DNA from: a virus
Virus record (IMG/VR): IMGVR_UViG_3300029263_000188
Coordinates: 1 to 23,770 of that record
Strand: one strand, 5' to 3'
DNA length: 23,770 nt
Numbering within the stretch: the stretch's first letter is position 1; each line of letters begins with the position of its first letter. Below are positions 16,518 to 23,770 of the stretch, one piece after another. Made by a program: the position numbers and the translations under genes. The notes under the pieces are model-generated. The model did no database searches. It saw only the letters and a program-made list of their open reading frames with translations, and had not been told where the DNA came from.

Positions 16518-16865
16518 TCACCTTTTACTTACTAATTTGAAAAACAGGTCTGCGTCCATTACTGCGAGAGGCTTCTTTCGATCCCCTTTAATGATGCAGA
16601 TTGGAGAAGCACCCTTGGGGCAATTCTCAGCAGCTTGATCTATGACTTTATAGACCGCGAAGTGCTTGTAAGATTTACACTCTACTGAATAAGGGAATAG
16701 GCGTCTGGCAGCGGGACTAAGTTGAACATCCTCGCCGCCAGCACCCATGCTAGTGGATCGGACATCATCTGGCTCAAGTTTGGGGTATAATCCTAAGATT
16801 GTATCCCGCACAAATTGCTGGAGACGCCGACCCTTTGCCTTAGCCGATGAGGTGGTTATAGCCAC
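16518..16865 (-). CDS. PD-(D/E)xK nuclease, resolvase-like, 115 aa
   Basis: A compact single-domain nuclease. 'GAGGEDVQLSPAARRLFP' supplies the first acidic residue (Asp46) and 'YSVECKSYKHF' the Glu62-x-Lys64 pair, the PD-(D/E)xK catalytic core. The N-terminal 'KGRRLQQFVRDTI' helix is typical of small Holliday-junction-resolvase-like phage nucleases. It probably cuts branched or concatemeric DNA during replication and packaging. The start is GTG at 16865, giving a 10-nt overlap with the exonuclease gene; no strong ribosome site is seen, so expression may rely on coupling. The precise DNA substrate cannot be told from sequence. Confidence 0.75.
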   Translation of the reverse strand: MAITTSSAKAKGRRLQQFVRDTILGLYPKLEPDDVRSTSMGAGGEDVQLSPAARRLFPYSVECKSYKHFAVYKVIDQAAENCPKGASPICIIKGDRKKPLAVMDADLFFKLVSKR

Positions 16866-17629
16866 TTAGGTTTCTCTAAGATCGTATACTCACCCCAACC
16901 AGTACCGTAATCATCTTTAACTTCGGCTTCGGCAATTACAGCTAATGTTCGGTGCATTCGTTCAGTAGCTGATTCAAGTAACTCTTCTGATACATGGTGG
17001 ATATGGCTGGCGTAAGGAGCAGACTTCTCAACACAAATAAACGAGAAGTTCTTTATGTGAGTAAGTCCAGCTTTCTGGCACGTCCAAATGTAATGAGCAG
17101 CTTGTAAGTCATACGCATAAGTTTGACACTCTCGCGCAAACCCGTGTGGGCTGGCATCTTGGGTAGTCTTAACGTCATACAGTGAACCCTCATGCTCAAT
17201 CATGCAGTCAGGCCGACACTTAATAACCAGCCCAGTGAAAGGGTCTTCTGCGAAGATACTGACTTCATTCTGTCGGTCTTTATCTTTCAGAATATTCCTA
17301 CATAGATTGTTACTAAGCACTGACGTAGCCATGCGATTAACCACATGATATTCTACTTCAGTTAGTAGTACCTGATCTGGTTTTAGGTCAGCTTTCAGCC
17401 CCAGCCATGTCTTAGTGTTCTTGGTCTTACCGCCCTTAACCAGAAGGTCTCTCTCTGGTTCTAATAATGCGGCATGTGTGGCAGAGCCAATCGTGAAAGC
17501 AGCGGTTTGAGTACGCTTCTCACCTTTCCAGTGGGCTAAAGATTTCTTGTATACAGTTTTAACTGCGCTAGAGCTTATACCACTGGTCGAGTGGTACATC
17601 TCGTTACTCATATCCTTAATGATACCCAT
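16856..17629 (-). CDS. RecE-like PDDEXK exonuclease, 257 aa
   Basis: It matches the C-terminal nuclease domain of RecE/exodeoxyribonuclease VIII-type phage proteins. In order: 'YHSTSGISSSAVK' (12-24), 'HWKG', 'GSATHAALLEPE' (48-59) with His52, Glu122, the Asp141 of 'CRPDCM', Asp152-x-Lys154 in 'YDVKTT', and 'QAAHY' (176-180). These are the metal and active-site residues of the fold. The enzyme would resect dsDNA ends to leave 3' single strands for annealing. It follows an ssDNA-binding-like gene by 9 nt. No obvious Shine-Dalgarno precedes the first ATG; the alternatives at Met7 and Met11 are also weak, so the start is uncertain by a few residues. Confidence 0.85.
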   Translation of the reverse strand: MGIIKDMSNEMYHSTSGISSSAVKTVYKKSLAHWKGEKRTQTAAFTIGSATHAALLEPERDLLVKGGKTKNTKTWLGLKADLKPDQVLLTEVEYHVVNRMATSVLSNNLCRNILKDKDRQNEVSIFAEDPFTGLVIKCRPDCMIEHEGSLYDVKTTQDASPHGFARECQTYAYDLQAAHYIWTCQKAGLTHIKNFSFICVEKSAPYASHIHHVSEELLESATERMHRTLAVIAEAEVKDDYGTGWGEYTILEKPKWL

Positions 17630-17638
17630 GTCGGAGGA

Positions 17639-18463
17639 TCAATAATCGCCAGATAAAGTGTCTACTGCATCCATAATCCGTGCAGCTTCTTCCTCATCAT
17701 CTTGCTGCATATGAGCATACTTAAATGCCTTTTCAATCTTAGCATTCTCTTCAATAATCAAACCAGCGACATGCTGCAAGCTGTCGTAGGTCAATTGATC
17801 GATTGGAATTTTCTTAGAAAGGTCGGGGGCAAATCGCATAACATAGTAACTCGCTCCTTTTGGGGTGGTATGCCTCTCAGCAGACAGCACACACTCATAG
17901 TCATATGTCGCAGAAGTTTTCGGTATTTTTTTTATTACATCCCAAAAGAATGGCCCATAATTCTTGCGCTTCAAAGACAGTAACACAGGGAGATTAGTGA
18001 TAGTCTTCTCTTCTCCGGTTGCGGTCTTACCTGTATAGGTAACCAAGCCCCGAATGATCCTAAACCTGTCACGACCTACAAACTCGGCCCTTTTATCTGG
18101 GGTCATAGCTTGGCTCTGTTCAAATGTAGGCATCCCACACATATAACCACCTAGCTGATCACGGGCCTCAGTCCTCTGGTTATCAACCAAAATGGACTTG
18201 TTTATAAGACCATCATCACCCCAATGCTGGTACTGTATCTTGGAGCTTAATACCCTCAGCCGCACACCTTCAGTGGCGTAAACTTTCTCCCCGTCTGTGG
18301 TGGTGTAGAATGACCCTAAAGTCAGTTGAGTACCGCTCCCATCTAGAGCGTTATGTACGATCTTTAACTTGGCTGTGGTAGTGGTAGATTTAGAGACTAC
18401 GCCTAATTGGGCATTCAGTTCATCAATCGATAAACCATTTTCTTGTAGAACTAGTTCAGTCAT
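17639..18463 (-). CDS. Putative single-stranded DNA-binding/annealing protein, 274 aa
   Basis: The start is placed at 18463 because AGGGA lies seven bases upstream of that ATG; a longer frame begins at 18541 inside the polymerase gene but lacks a ribosome site. The protein has a beta-rich centre (about residues 60-200) and a strongly acidic C-terminus ('QDDEEEAARIMDAVDTLSGDY'), as in phage ssDNA-binding proteins whose acidic tail contacts partner proteins. It lies between the DNA polymerase and the RecE-like exonuclease, exactly where an ssDNA-binding or annealing (RecT-like role) protein is expected. I see no diagnostic family motif, so the call rests mainly on context and tail composition. 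Confidence 0.6.
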   Translation of the reverse strand: MTELVLQENGLSIDELNAQLGVVSKSTTTTAKLKIVHNALDGSGTQLTLGSFYTTTDGEKVYATEGVRLRVLSSKIQYQHWGDDGLINKSILVDNQRTEARDQLGGYMCGMPTFEQSQAMTPDKRAEFVGRDRFRIIRGLVTYTGKTATGEEKTITNLPVLLSLKRKNYGPFFWDVIKKIPKTSATYDYECVLSAERHTTPKGASYYVMRFAPDLSKKIPIDQLTYDSLQHVAGLIIEENAKIEKAFKYAHMQQDDEEEAARIMDAVDTLSGDY

Positions 18464-18513
18464 TACTGTTTCCCTTACAATGTCATTCATTATACGATAG
18501 TTAAGCACTTTGA

Positions 18514-20658
18514 TCAAGTATATTCCTCTTGATCCAGCCAATTTTTACCTCTGGAAATCTCAATTTTAAGAGGTACTACTGCCTTGTAATTAAAGCGAGA
18601 TTCAAGCTCTTCTCCGACCTCAGTCATAGCCGTGGTCAGGATTGCTTTTACTTGATCTATTTCATCAGGGTGGGTATCTGAGACCAAGCTGTCATGGACA
18701 GTTAGGATGATTTTAGAGCGTAGATTTTGCTGCTTAAACAACCTCAATGCCCTAATACATGCGATCTGTACAATGTCAGCAGCGAAGCCCTGAACTGGGT
18801 AATTCAATATTTGTGTGGCAAAGCTGACCCTACCACCCCGTGTCCTAACTACATTAGGCCAGTAATACTGTCGGCCCGAAGGCGTCTGCACGATCCCATT
18901 CTTAAGTGTACCGCGCATGAGGCTGTCATGCCAAACCTTGATACCCTCATAAATGCTGTAGAAGCGGTCAAAATATGCCTTGATGTGGCGCGGCTCTCCA
19001 TTCCCTGTACCACCAAAAAGGGGTAAAAATGTATATGCTTTTGCTCCCTGTCTCTCTACTTTAGTTACGTCTTTAGGAGGCTTCTGGTTAACAATACTAG
19101 CTGTTTGTCTGTGAATATCCTTACCTTCAAGGATGTCGGCTATGCCTTGACCATCTCTCGCCAATTCACATGCGACAACCATCTCAAGACTTGAGTAATC
19201 AGCCTCTAGTAACAGGCCATCATCAAACCTACTGACAATAGAAGACCGTACAGGGAACCCTCTCTTGGGCCAGTTTTGAGCATTAGGGTTACTAGAAGAG
19301 AGGCGACCAGTAGCAGCGACACATTGGTTGAAATTTGCATGAAGTATTCCATTTGCGCGAGTTCCTCGTTTTAAACCCGCGACAAAGCTATCTAGGTAAG
19401 TAGATATGGCTGAAAGGCGGGATAATTTAATTAAAAACTCAACAGCTAGTGCGTCTTTTTTACGCTCGGCTTGTTGAATTAAGGCTTTGATTGTCTCTTT
19501 ATCGGACTTAAATCCGTTGATACTGGCATCCACTGGGCTGGTTGGAGACATCTTAAGCCCCGCTGTAACCCCAGTACTGACATAAACAGCACCAATACCT
19601 TCGCAGGTTGGGCATTTGCTGCGAGTTTTATATGGATCACCTGTCAGGTAATACTTCTTACCATTCTTCTGTCTGGTAATTTTCTTATATTTCTGGGTTG
19701 AACCTACGCCACCACAGTCATTGCACCGCACCGCCATCGTCTTTTTGACGATCTGAGTGGTGGCCCTGACTGCATCAATAAACTGCCCAGAAGACATGCG
19801 CGGAGGTCTAAGTGACATACCAGCTTCATTAGTGCCAATATTCCACGTCTGTATGTGCGCGAGACGATCCTTAACTTCACGGGAGTAAATGACCTTAGTC
19901 ATATCCACACCACTGTTAAGATTAATAGGTGTGTCTCCCATCACGTCTTGAACGAGTTCAGTCAGGCGCGAGGTTAATTCAGCCTTTTCTTTTACAAAGT
20001 CCTCTTCGACCTTAGCCAAGACTTGTAGATCAATCTGGCATCCGTTCCTTTCGATCTCGACCAGAAACATCAGCATGTCATTCATCTGGTCTACTGCCGT
20101 GAGTAGTGACTTATTTTCCTCAGCCTGAAAGTCATCCTGCTGACGTAAGTAGAGTTCAGCAGTGGTTCTGATATCAGCTTCTAAATATTCAGTGACGGTA
20201 TCCAGAGGCATAGACTCAAAGCCTGTACCGTCCTTAAACATCTCATCAACCAAATCACTCTTCTTGAGGTTAGTAAGCTCACGTCTGAGTGCAGTCTCTT
20301 TTAAGGACAGCTTCTTTCGCTGCCCTTTAGCCAGAAGATATTCGGCATTCATTGTGCAGACAATTTTATCTGGGATACGAAAGCCCATTTCCAGCAGCCA
20401 ACTGACATCAAACTTGGCATTATGGAATACAGCCACATCAGCTTCATCTAAAGCAGATTGAAAGGCATCTACGCTGTCAGGAGTAATGCACTCGTCATGG
20501 TGATAAATTGAATGCTGGTAGTCTTCCAGATCATCCCATCCCAAGAACCCCCACCCAGCCGCGACAAGGCGATTGGTTGGGTTATATGGGCTATTGTCTA
20601 TCCTGCCATCGATGCGCTTAACGGTGGTCTCAAGGTCTCCGATAAGGATTTTAGTCAT
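18514..20658 (-). CDS. polA: Family A DNA polymerase with 3'-5' exonuclease and DnaJ-type zinc-finger insert, 714 aa
   Basis: The replicative polymerase. Proofreading domain: Asp8/Glu10 in 'IGDLETT', Asn/Asp of 'FHNAKFDVSWL', and 'YLEADIRTT' (Exo III). An insert at about 312-356 holds 'CNDCGGVG' and 'CPTCEGIG', two DnaJ CxxCxGxG units making one zinc site. Polymerase domain: 'TGRLSSSNPNAQNWP', motif A Asp487 in 'LEADYSSLE', motif B Arg536-x3-Lys540-x3-Phe544-x3-Phe548-Gly, and motif C His655-Asp656 in 'TVHDSLV'. The position of E. coli Phe762 is Phe here, and the E. coli Tyr766 position is Phe. Start chosen at 20658, where a G-rich run (GGTGGGGGG) sits just upstream; an upstream ATG at 20712 would add 18 residues. 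It overlaps the preceding gene by 8 nt. Confidence 0.95.
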   Translation of the reverse strand: MTKILIGDLETTVKRIDGRIDNSPYNPTNRLVAAGWGFLGWDDLEDYQHSIYHHDECITPDSVDAFQSALDEADVAVFHNAKFDVSWLLEMGFRIPDKIVCTMNAEYLLAKGQRKKLSLKETALRRELTNLKKSDLVDEMFKDGTGFESMPLDTVTEYLEADIRTTAELYLRQQDDFQAEENKSLLTAVDQMNDMLMFLVEIERNGCQIDLQVLAKVEEDFVKEKAELTSRLTELVQDVMGDTPINLNSGVDMTKVIYSREVKDRLAHIQTWNIGTNEAGMSLRPPRMSSGQFIDAVRATTQIVKKTMAVRCNDCGGVGSTQKYKKITRQKNGKKYYLTGDPYKTRSKCPTCEGIGAVYVSTGVTAGLKMSPTSPVDASINGFKSDKETIKALIQQAERKKDALAVEFLIKLSRLSAISTYLDSFVAGLKRGTRANGILHANFNQCVAATGRLSSSNPNAQNWPKRGFPVRSSIVSRFDDGLLLEADYSSLEMVVACELARDGQGIADILEGKDIHRQTASIVNQKPPKDVTKVERQGAKAYTFLPLFGGTGNGEPRHIKAYFDRFYSIYEGIKVWHDSLMRGTLKNGIVQTPSGRQYYWPNVVRTRGGRVSFATQILNYPVQGFAADIVQIACIRALRLFKQQNLRSKIILTVHDSLVSDTHPDEIDQVKAILTTAMTEVGEELESRFNYKAVVPLKIEISRGKNWLDQEEYT

Positions 20659-20956
20659 TATCCCCCCACCGTTGATCTTGCTTGAATGGGATTGAGCGAA
20701 TACTAGTGTCACCTTCTGAGATAGACATCTTCGACCATGCCCTTAGCGACATAGGCTCAAAGCAGATTGTTGGTCCTCTCTGGACTATTAGAATACGGTC
20801 TGGGTTATACCCGTCTAGGATAAGCATCCTTGCTAATGTGCCTATCAGACTGCCTCTATTAGTTTGCACAAAGGGTGCGCCCTGAAGTTCTGGGCAAGTG
20901 ACTTTGTTAGAGCCTTCTAGTACAGCTAGGATTGAGTGAATGTTATGATCTATCAT
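20651..20956 (-). CDS. Small protein, 101 aa, unknown, between helicase and polymerase
   Basis: Its ATG overlaps the helicase stop (ATGA) and its TAA overlaps the polymerase start (ATGACTAA), so it is translationally coupled on both sides. It has the segment 'GSLIGTLARMLILDGYNPD' and 'ILIVQRGPTICFEPMSLRAW', with Cys at about 20 and 65. No membrane helix, zinc motif or P-loop. I do not recognise a family. Position suggests a replisome accessory or regulator, without direct evidence. Confidence 0.8.
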   Translation of the reverse strand: MIDHNIHSILAVLEGSNKVTCPELQGAPFVQTNRGSLIGTLARMLILDGYNPDRILIVQRGPTICFEPMSLRAWSKMSISEGDTSIRSIPFKQDQRWGDND

Positions 20957-22167
20957 ATTTCATACCGCGAAGTTTTGATGTCGAGATTACAAATAACTGT
21001 TCCGTGCCAACCGCTGATCTTATTCTTCATTACTGTAATCCAGCGAGTAGGATCATCAGGTTTCTCAGGGCTGTCCATCTTACCTACGCCAAGGAGAATA
21101 TCGCATTCGGCAATTTTCCCAACTTTAGAACCTTCGAGCATCGTAGGCGTGAGGCGTGTCTTACCTTCAGCTTCAGCAGAGGCTTGTGATAGTCCAATGA
21201 TTGCACAGTTATGCTTCTTAGCAAGTTCCCTTAGTCGGTAGTACAACTCCCGGAGACGCTCATGACCGCTGTTGAATTTAGTAGACAGTTCGATCTTGTC
21301 GGCCATGTCTACAAAGATTAAGTCATATTGCTCTCTGCTGAGATAGGCATCTAATTTAGCCATATCCCACCCTTGGATTTCCATAAATATTAGGCGGTCT
21401 TTTATACCAGAGTATCTTGCAGAAGCTGCCCTTGGATCAAACTCAACTTCCTCTTTTGAGAGACCACAATACGCTTGATGCGCTCGTAGCTTTGTGCGTT
21501 TACCTATCTCCTCATTGGCGAGGTATCCGACCTTAGCCCCTTGCTGGCAGAAACCTGCAGGGCCAGCGGATAGGCTTATTGCAAATGCTGTCTTACCCAC
21601 ATTAGAATATGCAGCAATGCAGCCAAACTCTCCACGGGCGATCCCGTAGACTTCCCTGCTCAAAGTTTCGATATTGAATTTAAATCTGTTGTCATTACTC
21701 ACACAAGCGAGAAGCTCATAGATATCATCTGTGACAGGCTCACCAAAATCATCAGGCATGTAGCCATCAGCCACGCGAGTTAGTAGAGCTTGTAGGCCAT
21801 CCCAAGCAGTGGGATCGTTCTCTGACATTTTGATGCCGTAGTTAGCTATATCCAGCCCAATAGATTGCCGCCAAAGGCTTTCAATAACATCACTGGCTAT
21901 GTCAGGATTAACTGCCTGAGAATTATATATTGATCCAATTAAGTCTTCAAATTCAGTGGTTCGGGCTGCTGTACTGGTTGGGTTCTTAGCCTTCCAAAAT
22001 CCAAATAACTCAATTGGGCTGATATCAACTTCAAATTTATCATGCATTTGCACGATGGTTTCGTAGACATCCTTTAAAGTATCATCAAATATTGATGACC
22101 GTAGTTTAGATTTGTTAGAAGTATAGAACTCATTACTTAAGCAAGATTTAACTATAGACTGATCCAT
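20953..22167 (-). CDS. DnaB-like replicative helicase, 404 aa
   Basis: Unwinds DNA at the fork. The N-terminal domain (about 1-130) is DnaB-type ('DQSIVKSCLSNEFY'). The RecA-like core has a Walker A 'AYSNVGKTAFA' (Lys192-Thr193), 'GYLANEEIG', and a Walker B 'YDLIFVDMAD' (Asp287), followed by 'AIIGLSQASAEAEGK' (H3/sensor) and 'EGSKVGKIAECDILLGV'. No primase domain is attached, so primase is a separate protein, unlike T7 gp4. The frame extends back to an ATG at 22221, but that codon touches the T-run of a terminator. The ATG at 22167 has GGA seven bases upstream and gives a natural DnaB-like N-terminus; 22179 is the other choice and lies inside an inverted repeat. Confidence 0.9.
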   Translation of the reverse strand: MDQSIVKSCLSNEFYTSNKSKLRSSIFDDTLKDVYETIVQMHDKFEVDISPIELFGFWKAKNPTSTAARTTEFEDLIGSIYNSQAVNPDIASDVIESLWRQSIGLDIANYGIKMSENDPTAWDGLQALLTRVADGYMPDDFGEPVTDDIYELLACVSNDNRFKFNIETLSREVYGIARGEFGCIAAYSNVGKTAFAISLSAGPAGFCQQGAKVGYLANEEIGKRTKLRAHQAYCGLSKEEVEFDPRAASARYSGIKDRLIFMEIQGWDMAKLDAYLSREQYDLIFVDMADKIELSTKFNSGHERLRELYYRLRELAKKHNCAIIGLSQASAEAEGKTRLTPTMLEGSKVGKIAECDILLGVGKMDSPEKPDDPTRWITVMKNKISGWHGTVICNLDIKTSRYEI

Positions 22168-22176
22168 CACTAATTC

Positions 22177-22203
22177 CATTGTTATGCACTTAGAGTAACA
22201 ATG
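22177..22203 (-). promoter_or_regulatory. 8-bp inverted repeat enclosing the TGCACTTAG motif before helicase
   Basis: CATTGTTA and TAACAATG are perfect inverted copies separated by 11 nt (tgcacttagag). The dyad encloses the GTTATGCACTT word shared with the early promoter region and covers the candidate start codon at 22179. It could be an operator or an mRNA hairpin that controls which helicase start is used. Confidence 0.45.
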
Positions 22204-22221
22204 TATAACGCAATCAGACAT

Positions 22222-22251
22222 AAAAAAAGCCCCGCAAAAGATTGCGAGGCT
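22222..22251 (-). terminator. Intrinsic terminator upstream of helicase
   Basis: In minus-strand RNA, AGCCTCGCAA pairs with TTGCGGGGCT across a 4-nt TCTT loop (ten pairs counting one G-U) and is followed by seven Ts. This is a textbook intrinsic terminator for transcripts coming from primase and the small genes. The helicase reading frame opens immediately after the T-run. Confidence 0.88.
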
Positions 22252-22280
22252 CTTATATTAAGTATAGTTAAGGGTAGACT

Positions 22281-22481
22281 TTAGTTCGCTCTGAACTTCA
22301 TCTTTTTTATGTCAGGAGGGATATCCCCTCTACGTTCACGTAGCTCCACGGCATAATGGACTACTCTACTATCGCCATCCACTAGCTCTTTGATTATTTC
22401 ATTCAGCCGATCTTCTATTTCGGCAGCTTCTCGGTAGCCTTCGATGTCTATGTCAATGACTGCAATTCCACGGGCTTTCAT
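22281..22481 (-). CDS. Small charged protein, 66 aa, unknown
   Basis: A short beta strand 'GIAVIDIDIEGY' is followed by a helix rich in Glu/Arg ('REAAEIEDRLNEIIKELVDG'), then 'VVHYAVELRERRGDIPPDIKKMKFR'. A GAGA-type ribosome site precedes the ATG. The end pattern 'RRGD-I-PPDIKKMKFR' looks conserved-protein-like and I believe similar small proteins occur near marine phage replication genes, but I cannot name a family. It is the last gene before the terminator at 22222-22251, so it probably belongs with primase as an early transcript. Confidence 0.75.
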   Translation of the reverse strand: MKARGIAVIDIDIEGYREAAEIEDRLNEIIKELVDGDSRVVHYAVELRERRGDIPPDIKKMKFRAN

Positions 22482-22749
22482 GCTTACTATCTCTTCTATT
22501 AGTATTTGCTGTGAGCCGTTTAAACGGCATTAAAAAGTTATTCAATGAAATAAATTTGGGTGGACCTGACGGGAGATTTAACCAGTCGCTTAATGATACC
22601 CCCTCGTCACTTAGATAACCTTTACATAAAACTTTATGCGCTGGCATAATAATATTGCAGCGGTTCCACGCCACAACCATCCTGCTCCAGACCATCTTCC
22701 GATGATGCTCCTTGTAGATAAACTTTAAATATTTTTCTGAGATATTCAT
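22453..22749 (-). CDS. Possible 98-aa protein, unknown
   Basis: It fills the only other open space between primase and the 66-aa gene, which it overlaps by 29 nt. The N-terminus is basic and aromatic ('KYLKFIYKEHHRKMVWSRM'), the middle has 'CNIIMPAHKVLCKGYLSDEG', and the end is 'RRDSKHESPWNCSH'. The ribosome site is weak (a G-rich run about 16 bases upstream). No family recognised. The overlap and weak start make it less certain than its neighbours, though no alternative gene covers this stretch. Confidence 0.5.
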   Translation of the reverse strand: MNISEKYLKFIYKEHHRKMVWSRMVVAWNRCNIIMPAHKVLCKGYLSDEGVSLSDWLNLPSGPPKFISLNNFLMPFKRLTANTNRRDSKHESPWNCSH

Positions 22750-22770
22750 TGTAGTACTTACACCCCCATC

Positions 22771-22794
22771 CTCTAGGCTGTGTCGTTGCTAGAG
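22771..22794 (-). other. Short inverted repeat after primase
   Basis: CTCTAG (22771-22776) and CTAGAG (22789-22794) form a 6-bp dyad in the 53-nt gap between primase and the next gene. There is no T-run on either side, so it is not an obvious terminator; it could be an mRNA processing or stability hairpin. Confidence 0.3.
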
Positions 22795-22802
22795 CCGATA
22801 TG

Positions 22803-23561
22803 TTACACAGTTAACACCGCCTTGATTTGTTCAACACTTAAACACTTAAGGTCTTTCTGAGTAAACCTCACTTTTATATGCGAACAAACAGACTTACGTG
22901 TCTTAATAGCCTTACGTGCTGCATCTTTGTCAAGAATAAAATACACTTTGTTGAAATTACTAAGAGTTTCTTTAATTGGGTTGGTAAGTGTTGTGCCAAG
23001 CATTGCTATCCCAACAGTGTTAGGTAATCTACTAATACTACAGGCAGATGGTGTGTCCTCAACTAAGACTGCTGTTGATCCAGTACCCACAGCGATACCA
23101 GCGGGTAGGTCGCCAAAAGACAACCACTTAGGGCCACGGCTTAATGAGCGGCCCACTGCGCCGTCTCCTTGAATAAACAGCACTCTATCCTCAGCAGGGG
23201 CATACCTGACCTCTATGAGGCCTCTCTGGTAGGCTTCTAGGCTGTTGACTGATGCAAGGTAGTCTAGGGCTGGTTGGTGGTTCTCAGGGCGTGTGGTGAG
23301 GCTGGGAATGGGCTTATATCGTTGCTTTGATATCTTAGTTCCATTAGCCATGTAATCTTTAGCAGTCTGCAGGTCACGTCTTCCTGAGTATATTCCCCTG
23401 CCATTACAACTAGCCCTGTAGCAATTCCACATGAGCTTACCATCCGATTTGGCTGCTGATAGTTTCTTTGGGGTTCCGCAGAAGGGGCATTGGATGGTGA
23501 CATTATCCCCTTCTCTTAGGTGAAGACTTTGTATTACCTGTAGTTGTTCAGCATAGGTCAT
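22803..23561 (-). CDS. DNA primase: zinc-binding plus TOPRIM, 252 aa
   Basis: Makes RNA primers at the fork. The N-terminal zinc ribbon has Cys25-x2-Cys28 ('CPFC') and Cys47/Cys52 ('CYRASC'), similar in layout to the T7 gp4 zinc domain. A TOPRIM fold follows: Glu168-Asp169 in 'AVLVEDTPSACSI' and Asp211-x-Asp213 in 'YFILDKDAARKA', the metal-binding residues. It ends soon after TOPRIM, so there is no helicase domain; the helicase is a separate gene about 650 nt downstream. It is the first gene of the minus-strand module, with AGG upstream of the ATG and a candidate promoter about 50 nt further out. Confidence 0.92.
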   Translation of the reverse strand: MTYAEQLQVIQSLHLREGDNVTIQCPFCGTPKKLSAAKSDGKLMWNCYRASCNGRGIYSGRRDLQTAKDYMANGTKISKQRYKPIPSLTTRPENHQPALDYLASVNSLEAYQRGLIEVRYAPAEDRVLFIQGDGAVGRSLSRGPKWLSFGDLPAGIAVGTGSTAVLVEDTPSACSISRLPNTVGIAMLGTTLTNPIKETLSNFNKVYFILDKDAARKAIKTRKSVCSHIKVRFTQKDLKCLSVEQIKAVLTV

Positions 23562-23606
23562 TAACCTAGTCCTATATAGTATACAGCCTCAAGAAAGAAC
23601 TCTTTA

Positions 23607-23635
23607 AGGATACAGGCGTTATGCACTTTCGTCAA
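23607..23635 (-). promoter_or_regulatory. Candidate sigma70-type early promoter, minus strand
   Basis: On the minus strand TTGACG (5 of 6 to TTGACA) is followed by exactly 17 nt and TATCCT (4 of 6 to TATAAT). It lies about 50 nt upstream of primase and would start the whole early module. The spacer carries the AAGTGCATAAC word that also lies before helicase, so a repressor or activator could act here. Confidence 0.65.
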
Positions 23636-23652
23636 CACTTAATAGAGCACTT
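23624..23652. repeat. Three CACTT units with exact 12-bp period
   Basis: CACTT occurs at 23624-23628, 23636-23640 and 23648-23652, each 12 bp from the next, across the -35 end of the candidate early promoter. Regular spacing near one helical turn suggests a cooperative binding array (iteron- or operator-like). Confidence 0.45.
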
Positions 23653-23729
23653 TTAAAACCAATTTATGATAACAGTCATTTCAGTAATAATCGTGTAACC
23701 TATTGAAAACAAACACTACCCGTGACTCA

Positions 23730-23764
23730 ATTGGTCGTAGGTTCGATCCCTACCGCCGGAGCCA
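23730..23764 (+). other. tRNA 3'-end segment, candidate phage attachment core (probably tRNA-Asn)
   Basis: The 35 nt reproduce the 3' part of a tRNA: variable loop, T-stem GTAGG, T-loop TTCGATC, T-stem CCTAC, acceptor strand CGCCGGA, discriminator G and CCA. A72 with G73 implies U1 in the full tRNA, as in tRNA-Asn (tRNA-Gln less likely), and the sequence strongly resembles alphaproteobacterial tRNA-Asn. The anticodon arm and 5' half are missing, so it is not a functional gene. Phage attachment sites commonly duplicate exactly this piece so that the host tRNA is restored after integration. Confidence 0.75.
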
Positions 23765-23770
23765 TCTTAC

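Follow-up and report, generated by a model that had tools for sequence, protein, structure and literature searches.

A tRNA-Asn(GTT) 3' half at the end of an HMO-2011-type marine podovirus fragment is very probably an attachment site for integration into Rhodobacteraceae

Phages of the HMO-2011 type rank with the most abundant ones known from the ocean, and how often they lysogenise is a question that attachment sites can help to address. The window analysed here, a viral fragment of 23,770 bases, raises it directly by stopping at a truncated tRNA: does this piece mark the site at which the phage integrates, the border of an already integrated prophage, or what is left of a phage tRNA gene? 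The first-pass annotation had described a tRNA-like stretch of 35 nt lacking a 5' half at 23730-23764 and had named tRNA-Asn as its probable identity. Both the resemblance and the missing 5' half held, whereas alignment with the host tRNA-Asn moved the start of identity three nucleotides upstream. The resulting core maps to 23727-23764 on the plus strand (TCAATTGGTCGTAGGTTCGATCCCTACCGCCGGAGCCA) and is followed by TCTTAC, which completes the last 44 bases of the window. It is identical at 38 of 38 nucleotides to positions 39-76 (standard tRNA numbering) of Rhodobacteraceae tRNA-Asn(GTT), encompassing the 3' strand of the anticodon stem, the variable loop, the T-arm, the acceptor 3' strand, G73 and CCA. 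The tRNA match breaks off upstream of 23727. The second-best place in the window matches at 22 of 38 positions and the best places in 20 shuffled windows reached 19-23 of 38, and we therefore rejected a chance match; the core is the sole tRNA-3'-like element of the window. As for its identity, ARAGORN named the host genes that carry the core tRNA-Asn(GTT), in agreement with the initial assignment.

We then asked which phage carries this element. The minus strand of the window encodes a DNA primase (22803-23561, PHROG 47), whose start codon lies ~170 nt from the core (usually 167-214 nt in relatives), a DnaB-like replicative helicase (20953-22221, Pfam DnaB_C) and a family A DNA polymerase (18514-20712, Pfam DNA_pol_A plus exonuclease), along with a DUF3799 (PDDEXK-like) protein, a nucleotide pyrophosphohydrolase and a ribonucleotide reductase. 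The translated polymerase contains CNDCGGVG and CPTCEGIG between its exonuclease and polymerase domains, that is, the two CXXCXGXG (DnaJ-type) motifs of the inserted partial DnaJ central domain that is the hallmark of HMO-2011-type family A polymerases (PMC6918029, PMC9038755). In tblastn searches, this polymerase matched those of CRP-738 (65% at the amino acid level), CRP-235, CRP-212 and CRP-3, followed by HTVC033P, CRP-1 and HMO-2011. The replication genes of the minus strand keep the order of CRP-738, and the primase, helicase, DNA polymerase, exonuclease and ribonucleotide reductase module is homologous and co-linear with that of the group. The window is thus an HMO-2011-type marine podovirus with Roseobacter phage CRP-738 as its nearest isolate, an assignment made on a fragment; the group is further defined by a genome of ~52-55 kb and common capsid, portal and terminase genes. 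Within the polymerase gene, 36 nt of the coding strand (19243-19278) recur with 35/36 identity at 2007-2042, inside a late gene (646-2121) and in another reading frame; the repeat was absent from the five related contigs or contig parts checked, and we found no cause for it.

A core at the extreme end of a fragment could be either a free attP or an attL/attR border, as the first-pass annotation had left it. A window that stopped at the junction with the host chromosome would end much as this one does, six nucleotides after the core, and the primase-facing side would be the attR side of a prophage. One IMG/VR contig carrying the core followed by TCTTAC (IMGVR_UViG_3300029266_001036; 8,752 bases; hereafter L242) decides between these possibilities. 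L242 aligns without gaps to 16578-23770 of the window at 99.79% identity over 7,193 nt and extends 1.56 kb past the core, so that the six terminal bases of the window (TCTTAC, 23765-23770, plus strand) are the start of a right arm that runs on as phage DNA. Apart from a block of ~560 nt, this right stretch aligns at ~90-96% identity with three related contigs (L063, L084 and L243). The core is flanked by phage DNA on either side in L242 and is therefore attP rather than a prophage edge, the window ending inside it. Repeats common to phages and host tRNA genes are places where the assembly of a metagenome should break, which provides a plausible explanation for the contig stop at this core. We consequently rejected the prophage edge, which L242 contradicts and which we regard as very unlikely. 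The divergent block of ~560 nt, ~480-1045 nt past the core, holds a 137-aa reading frame, is absent from L063, L084 and L243, and falls between attP and the place where the integrase is expected.

A perfect tRNA 3' half might alternatively be the remnant of a complete phage tRNA gene, serving either as a translational helper or in tRNA-dependent lysogeny. The first-pass annotation had itself named a full tRNA gene elsewhere in the phage as evidence against an attachment core. ARAGORN and Rfam called no tRNA gene in the window, and L063 and L084 likewise yielded none, nor did the first 12 kb of either CRP-738 or CRP-235. The distribution of such elements was further assessed in 80 relatives gathered by their primase only, so that the core was no selection criterion. 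In 69 of the 80 contigs we found, on the same strand and ~160-530 nt from the primase start, the 3' portion of a tRNA with its T-stem paired; upstream DNA is shorter than 300 nt in five of the remaining 11. The truncated part thus recurs at one place with a tRNA identity that varies with the integrase clade, a pattern that att cores should produce but decaying tRNA genes should not. On these grounds the remnant reading was also rejected, its probability being close to negligible. Collectively, an exact copy of the 3' part of a host tRNA down to CCA, phage DNA on both sides and a window devoid of complete tRNA genes make it very probable that the window ends in an attP, that the HMO-2011-type marine podovirus carrying it is temperate, and that its target is the 3' half of the Rhodobacteraceae tRNA-Asn(GTT) gene.

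An attP of this kind calls for an integrase, which the first-pass annotation had placed just past position 23770. In relatives, the primase lies on one side of the core and a tyrosine integrase on the other; an integrase near the core was seen in L063/L084, CRP-738 and dozens of other relatives. L063 and L084, the nearest relatives of this phage (~92% nucleotide identity), are the most informative in this respect. L063 contains a full-length 374-aa reading frame matching Pfam PF00589 (53.8 bits, cut-off 27.1) and PHROG 1, located 1.9-3.0 kb past the core and reading toward it, and L084 carries most of the same gene. Mapping this position through L242 predicts that the integrase of our phage should lie ~2.4-3.5 kb past 23770; the prediction of a neighbouring integrase is therefore borne out in the relatives, though "just past" was slightly optimistic. 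Beyond the core, sequence extends for 6 nt in the window and for 1.56 kb in L242. No integrase was found in the contigs behind L242, L245 and L257, the first two of which end before the expected place.

Acceptor stems of the 69 cores from the primase-chosen set identified tRNA-Asn in 29 cases, a tRNA-fMet-like target in 35, tRNA-Asp in three and two other targets once each; the non-Asn targets bear the names that we take to be correct from anticodon-loop remnants and general knowledge. In the four isolates examined (CRP-738, CRP-235, CRP-212 and CRP-3), the core invariably lies between integrase and primase. Variation in the target, at one nearly fixed genome position, was seen in contigs L271-L345, L240, L241, L263 and L264. 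Mapped onto a tree built from 52 integrases, the target label requires four changes, the minimum for five labels, as compared with 18.6 changes for shuffled labels; on a primase tree of 75 rows it requires five; the tRNA-Asn set in these trees was partly picked for an exact core, and their proportions do not represent frequencies. The target follows the integrase clade, yet phage descent accounts for most of the clustering too. These data suggest that a cassette of integrase and attP, with several alternative tRNA targets, is common among the phages that surround ours in the primase clade. We entertain only tentatively, as a proposal that may well be wrong, that HMO-2011-type phages carry this cassette at one fixed place, that the target (Asn, fMet-like, Asp and two or more others) was switched several times together with the integrase, and that some lineages, this one included, either have shifted the crossover out of the anticodon loop and into the T-arm or tolerate a mismatched overlap.

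The closest experimental precedent is Roseobacter phage CRP-3, whose integration at tRNA-Met(CAT) of its host FZCC0040 was revealed by sequencing and PCR, with a core overlapping the tRNA 3' end (PMC6918029). CRP-3 is likewise of the HMO-2011 type, and its core, flanked by integrase and primase and ~165 nt from the latter, agrees with the one studied here in its place next to the primase, in its orientation and in having no 5' half. Unlike our phage, CRP-3 targets tRNA-Met/fMet and its integrase belongs to a different clade. The earlier proposal of a phage that is temperate, or recently was, thus gains experimental backing at the homologous site of CRP-3, while integration and lysogeny of this phage are predicted from its sequence. 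We take the CRP-3 core to resemble an initiator tRNA, the name fMet resting on general knowledge plus PMC6918029; its equation with the tRNA-Met called in L131 was rejected, as the two do not match and the L131 gene is a different CAT tRNA. CRP-738, the closest isolate, which infects Rhodobacteraceae bacterium FZCC0089, has a tRNA-Asn core at the same place and an annotated integrase (gp03) upstream of the primase. Its core differs in the T-stem (GTTGG/CCAAC, as opposed to GTAGG/CCTAC here) and it keeps the loop CTGTTAA. On a broader scale, tRNA-targeting tyrosine integrases combine identity to a tRNA 3' end, restoration of the tRNA upon integration and a nearby tyrosine recombinase (Williams 2002, as summarised in PMC8371274), and the arrangement predicted for our phage shows no fundamental difference from these; crossover subsites in those systems are the anticodon loop, the T-loop or the 3' end. 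Mycobacteriophage Fionnbharth likewise uses a host tRNA gene as its integration target, but in its tRNA-dependent lysogeny the sequence common to attP and attB is just 10 bp long, and the phage supplies a complete tRNA in place of the one that is broken (PMC10865867). By contrast, phage and host have 38 nt in common here, enough to rebuild the tRNA, and neither the window nor L063 or L084 contains a complete phage tRNA, of this isotype or any other. The site is a clear but ordinary case of a known mechanism: a well-supported attP of known kind in a known phage group, in which the tRNA-Asn target is the part for which the open-access papers searched gave no earlier report within the group.

The core also bears on the host, which had been predicted to be alphaproteobacterial. 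Among 296 genomes sampled from one Rhodobacteraceae family, 199 contain the exact 38-mer, as against 20 of 398 genomes sampled across the whole phylum. This distribution and the hosts of the isolates support a roseobacter-type Rhodobacteraceae host, in keeping with the prediction, at the level of the family. By naming a likely host family and a chromosomal site, the core enables a two-primer lysogeny test applicable to seawater or cultures. A helicase query that does detect phage contigs retrieved no integrated relatives from 395 genomes of the family, which fits either rare lysogeny or poor sampling of the true hosts. Four roseobacter genomes gave partial matches to the polymerase (31-34% identity across ~295 residues), which were rejected as prophages; embedded in frames of 935-1,108 aa, they most likely correspond to cellular DNA polymerase I. 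The genome of Rhodobacteraceae bacterium SB2 (that of L177) contains, at G005:C13:4882-9547, three tRNA-Asn 3' parts with no 5' half spaced 2.2-2.4 kb apart, one of them 90% identical, in a pattern as left by elements inserted successively. Several other Rhodobacteraceae harbour two tRNA-Asn 3' copies roughly 10 kb apart.

How, then, would integration proceed? A tyrosine integrase encoded ~2.4-3.5 kb beyond the window end, in the direction of the core, would bind the core and flanking arm sites and recombine attP with the chromosomal tRNA-Asn gene. Because the phage has an exact copy of positions 39-76, attL, on the integrase side, would carry the rebuilt tRNA, and attR, on the primase side, would be marked by the displaced tRNA 3' fragment. 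An intact integrase and integration itself are inferred for this phage, and two features of the locus bear on where the crossover would fall. On the one hand, an inverted repeat of the TAAGTCATTGATTTTA type flanks the core in several relatives, centred near tRNA position 53, with the best cases scoring 12.5-16.5 as compared with 9.5 for the 99th percentile of shuffled flanks. In our phage, whose left attP arm is TAACCTATTGAAAACAAAC, a putative left arm-type integrase site, TAACCTATTG (23696-23705, plus strand), is in phase with the TAAxxCATTG arm that forms one half of the inverted repeat in relatives; on the right side, L242 has no matching repeat. The centre of this repeat suggests that crossover may occur in the T-arm. 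On the other hand, most tRNA-Asn cores of the group keep the anticodon loop CTGTTAA, and seven-base anticodon loops are a usual overlap region (PMC8371274), so that loop conservation would rather point to a crossover there.

In our phage, the anticodon-loop position (23720-23726, plus strand) reads CCGTGAC in place of the host CTGTTAA, and these three mismatches out of seven would hinder a crossover placed in the loop. Either the crossover falls at position 39 or further 3', in the T-arm that the symmetry of the arms suggests, or the overlap can bear mismatches, a tolerance described for CTnDOT and NBU1 (PMC10865867), or the site is decaying. The last option implies a lineage that was once temperate, a phage that no longer integrates and a core that persists as a decaying footprint. 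It would accommodate the altered loop, given that L063 and L084 keep CTGTTAA at 92% identity, as well as a phage sequence that ends, in both the window and L242, before the expected integrase place and the lack of prophages among the family genomes. However, the 38 nt from which the tRNA would have to be restored match the host without exception, the left arm motif keeps its phase, and the reading frame of the L063 integrase is full-length. Other lineages of the group also alter the loop yet keep positions 39-76, so that loop divergence alone is no sign of decay. We thus consider a relic unlikely and favour an attP that still serves integration. To the right of the core, at ~35-85 nt in L242, an iterated TGGCA/TGCCA element (GGCATGGCAGAAAGCATAGTGGCAGACTGCCATTTTTGCCA) conserved in many relatives possibly provides arm-type integrase or excisionase sites, or forms a hairpin.
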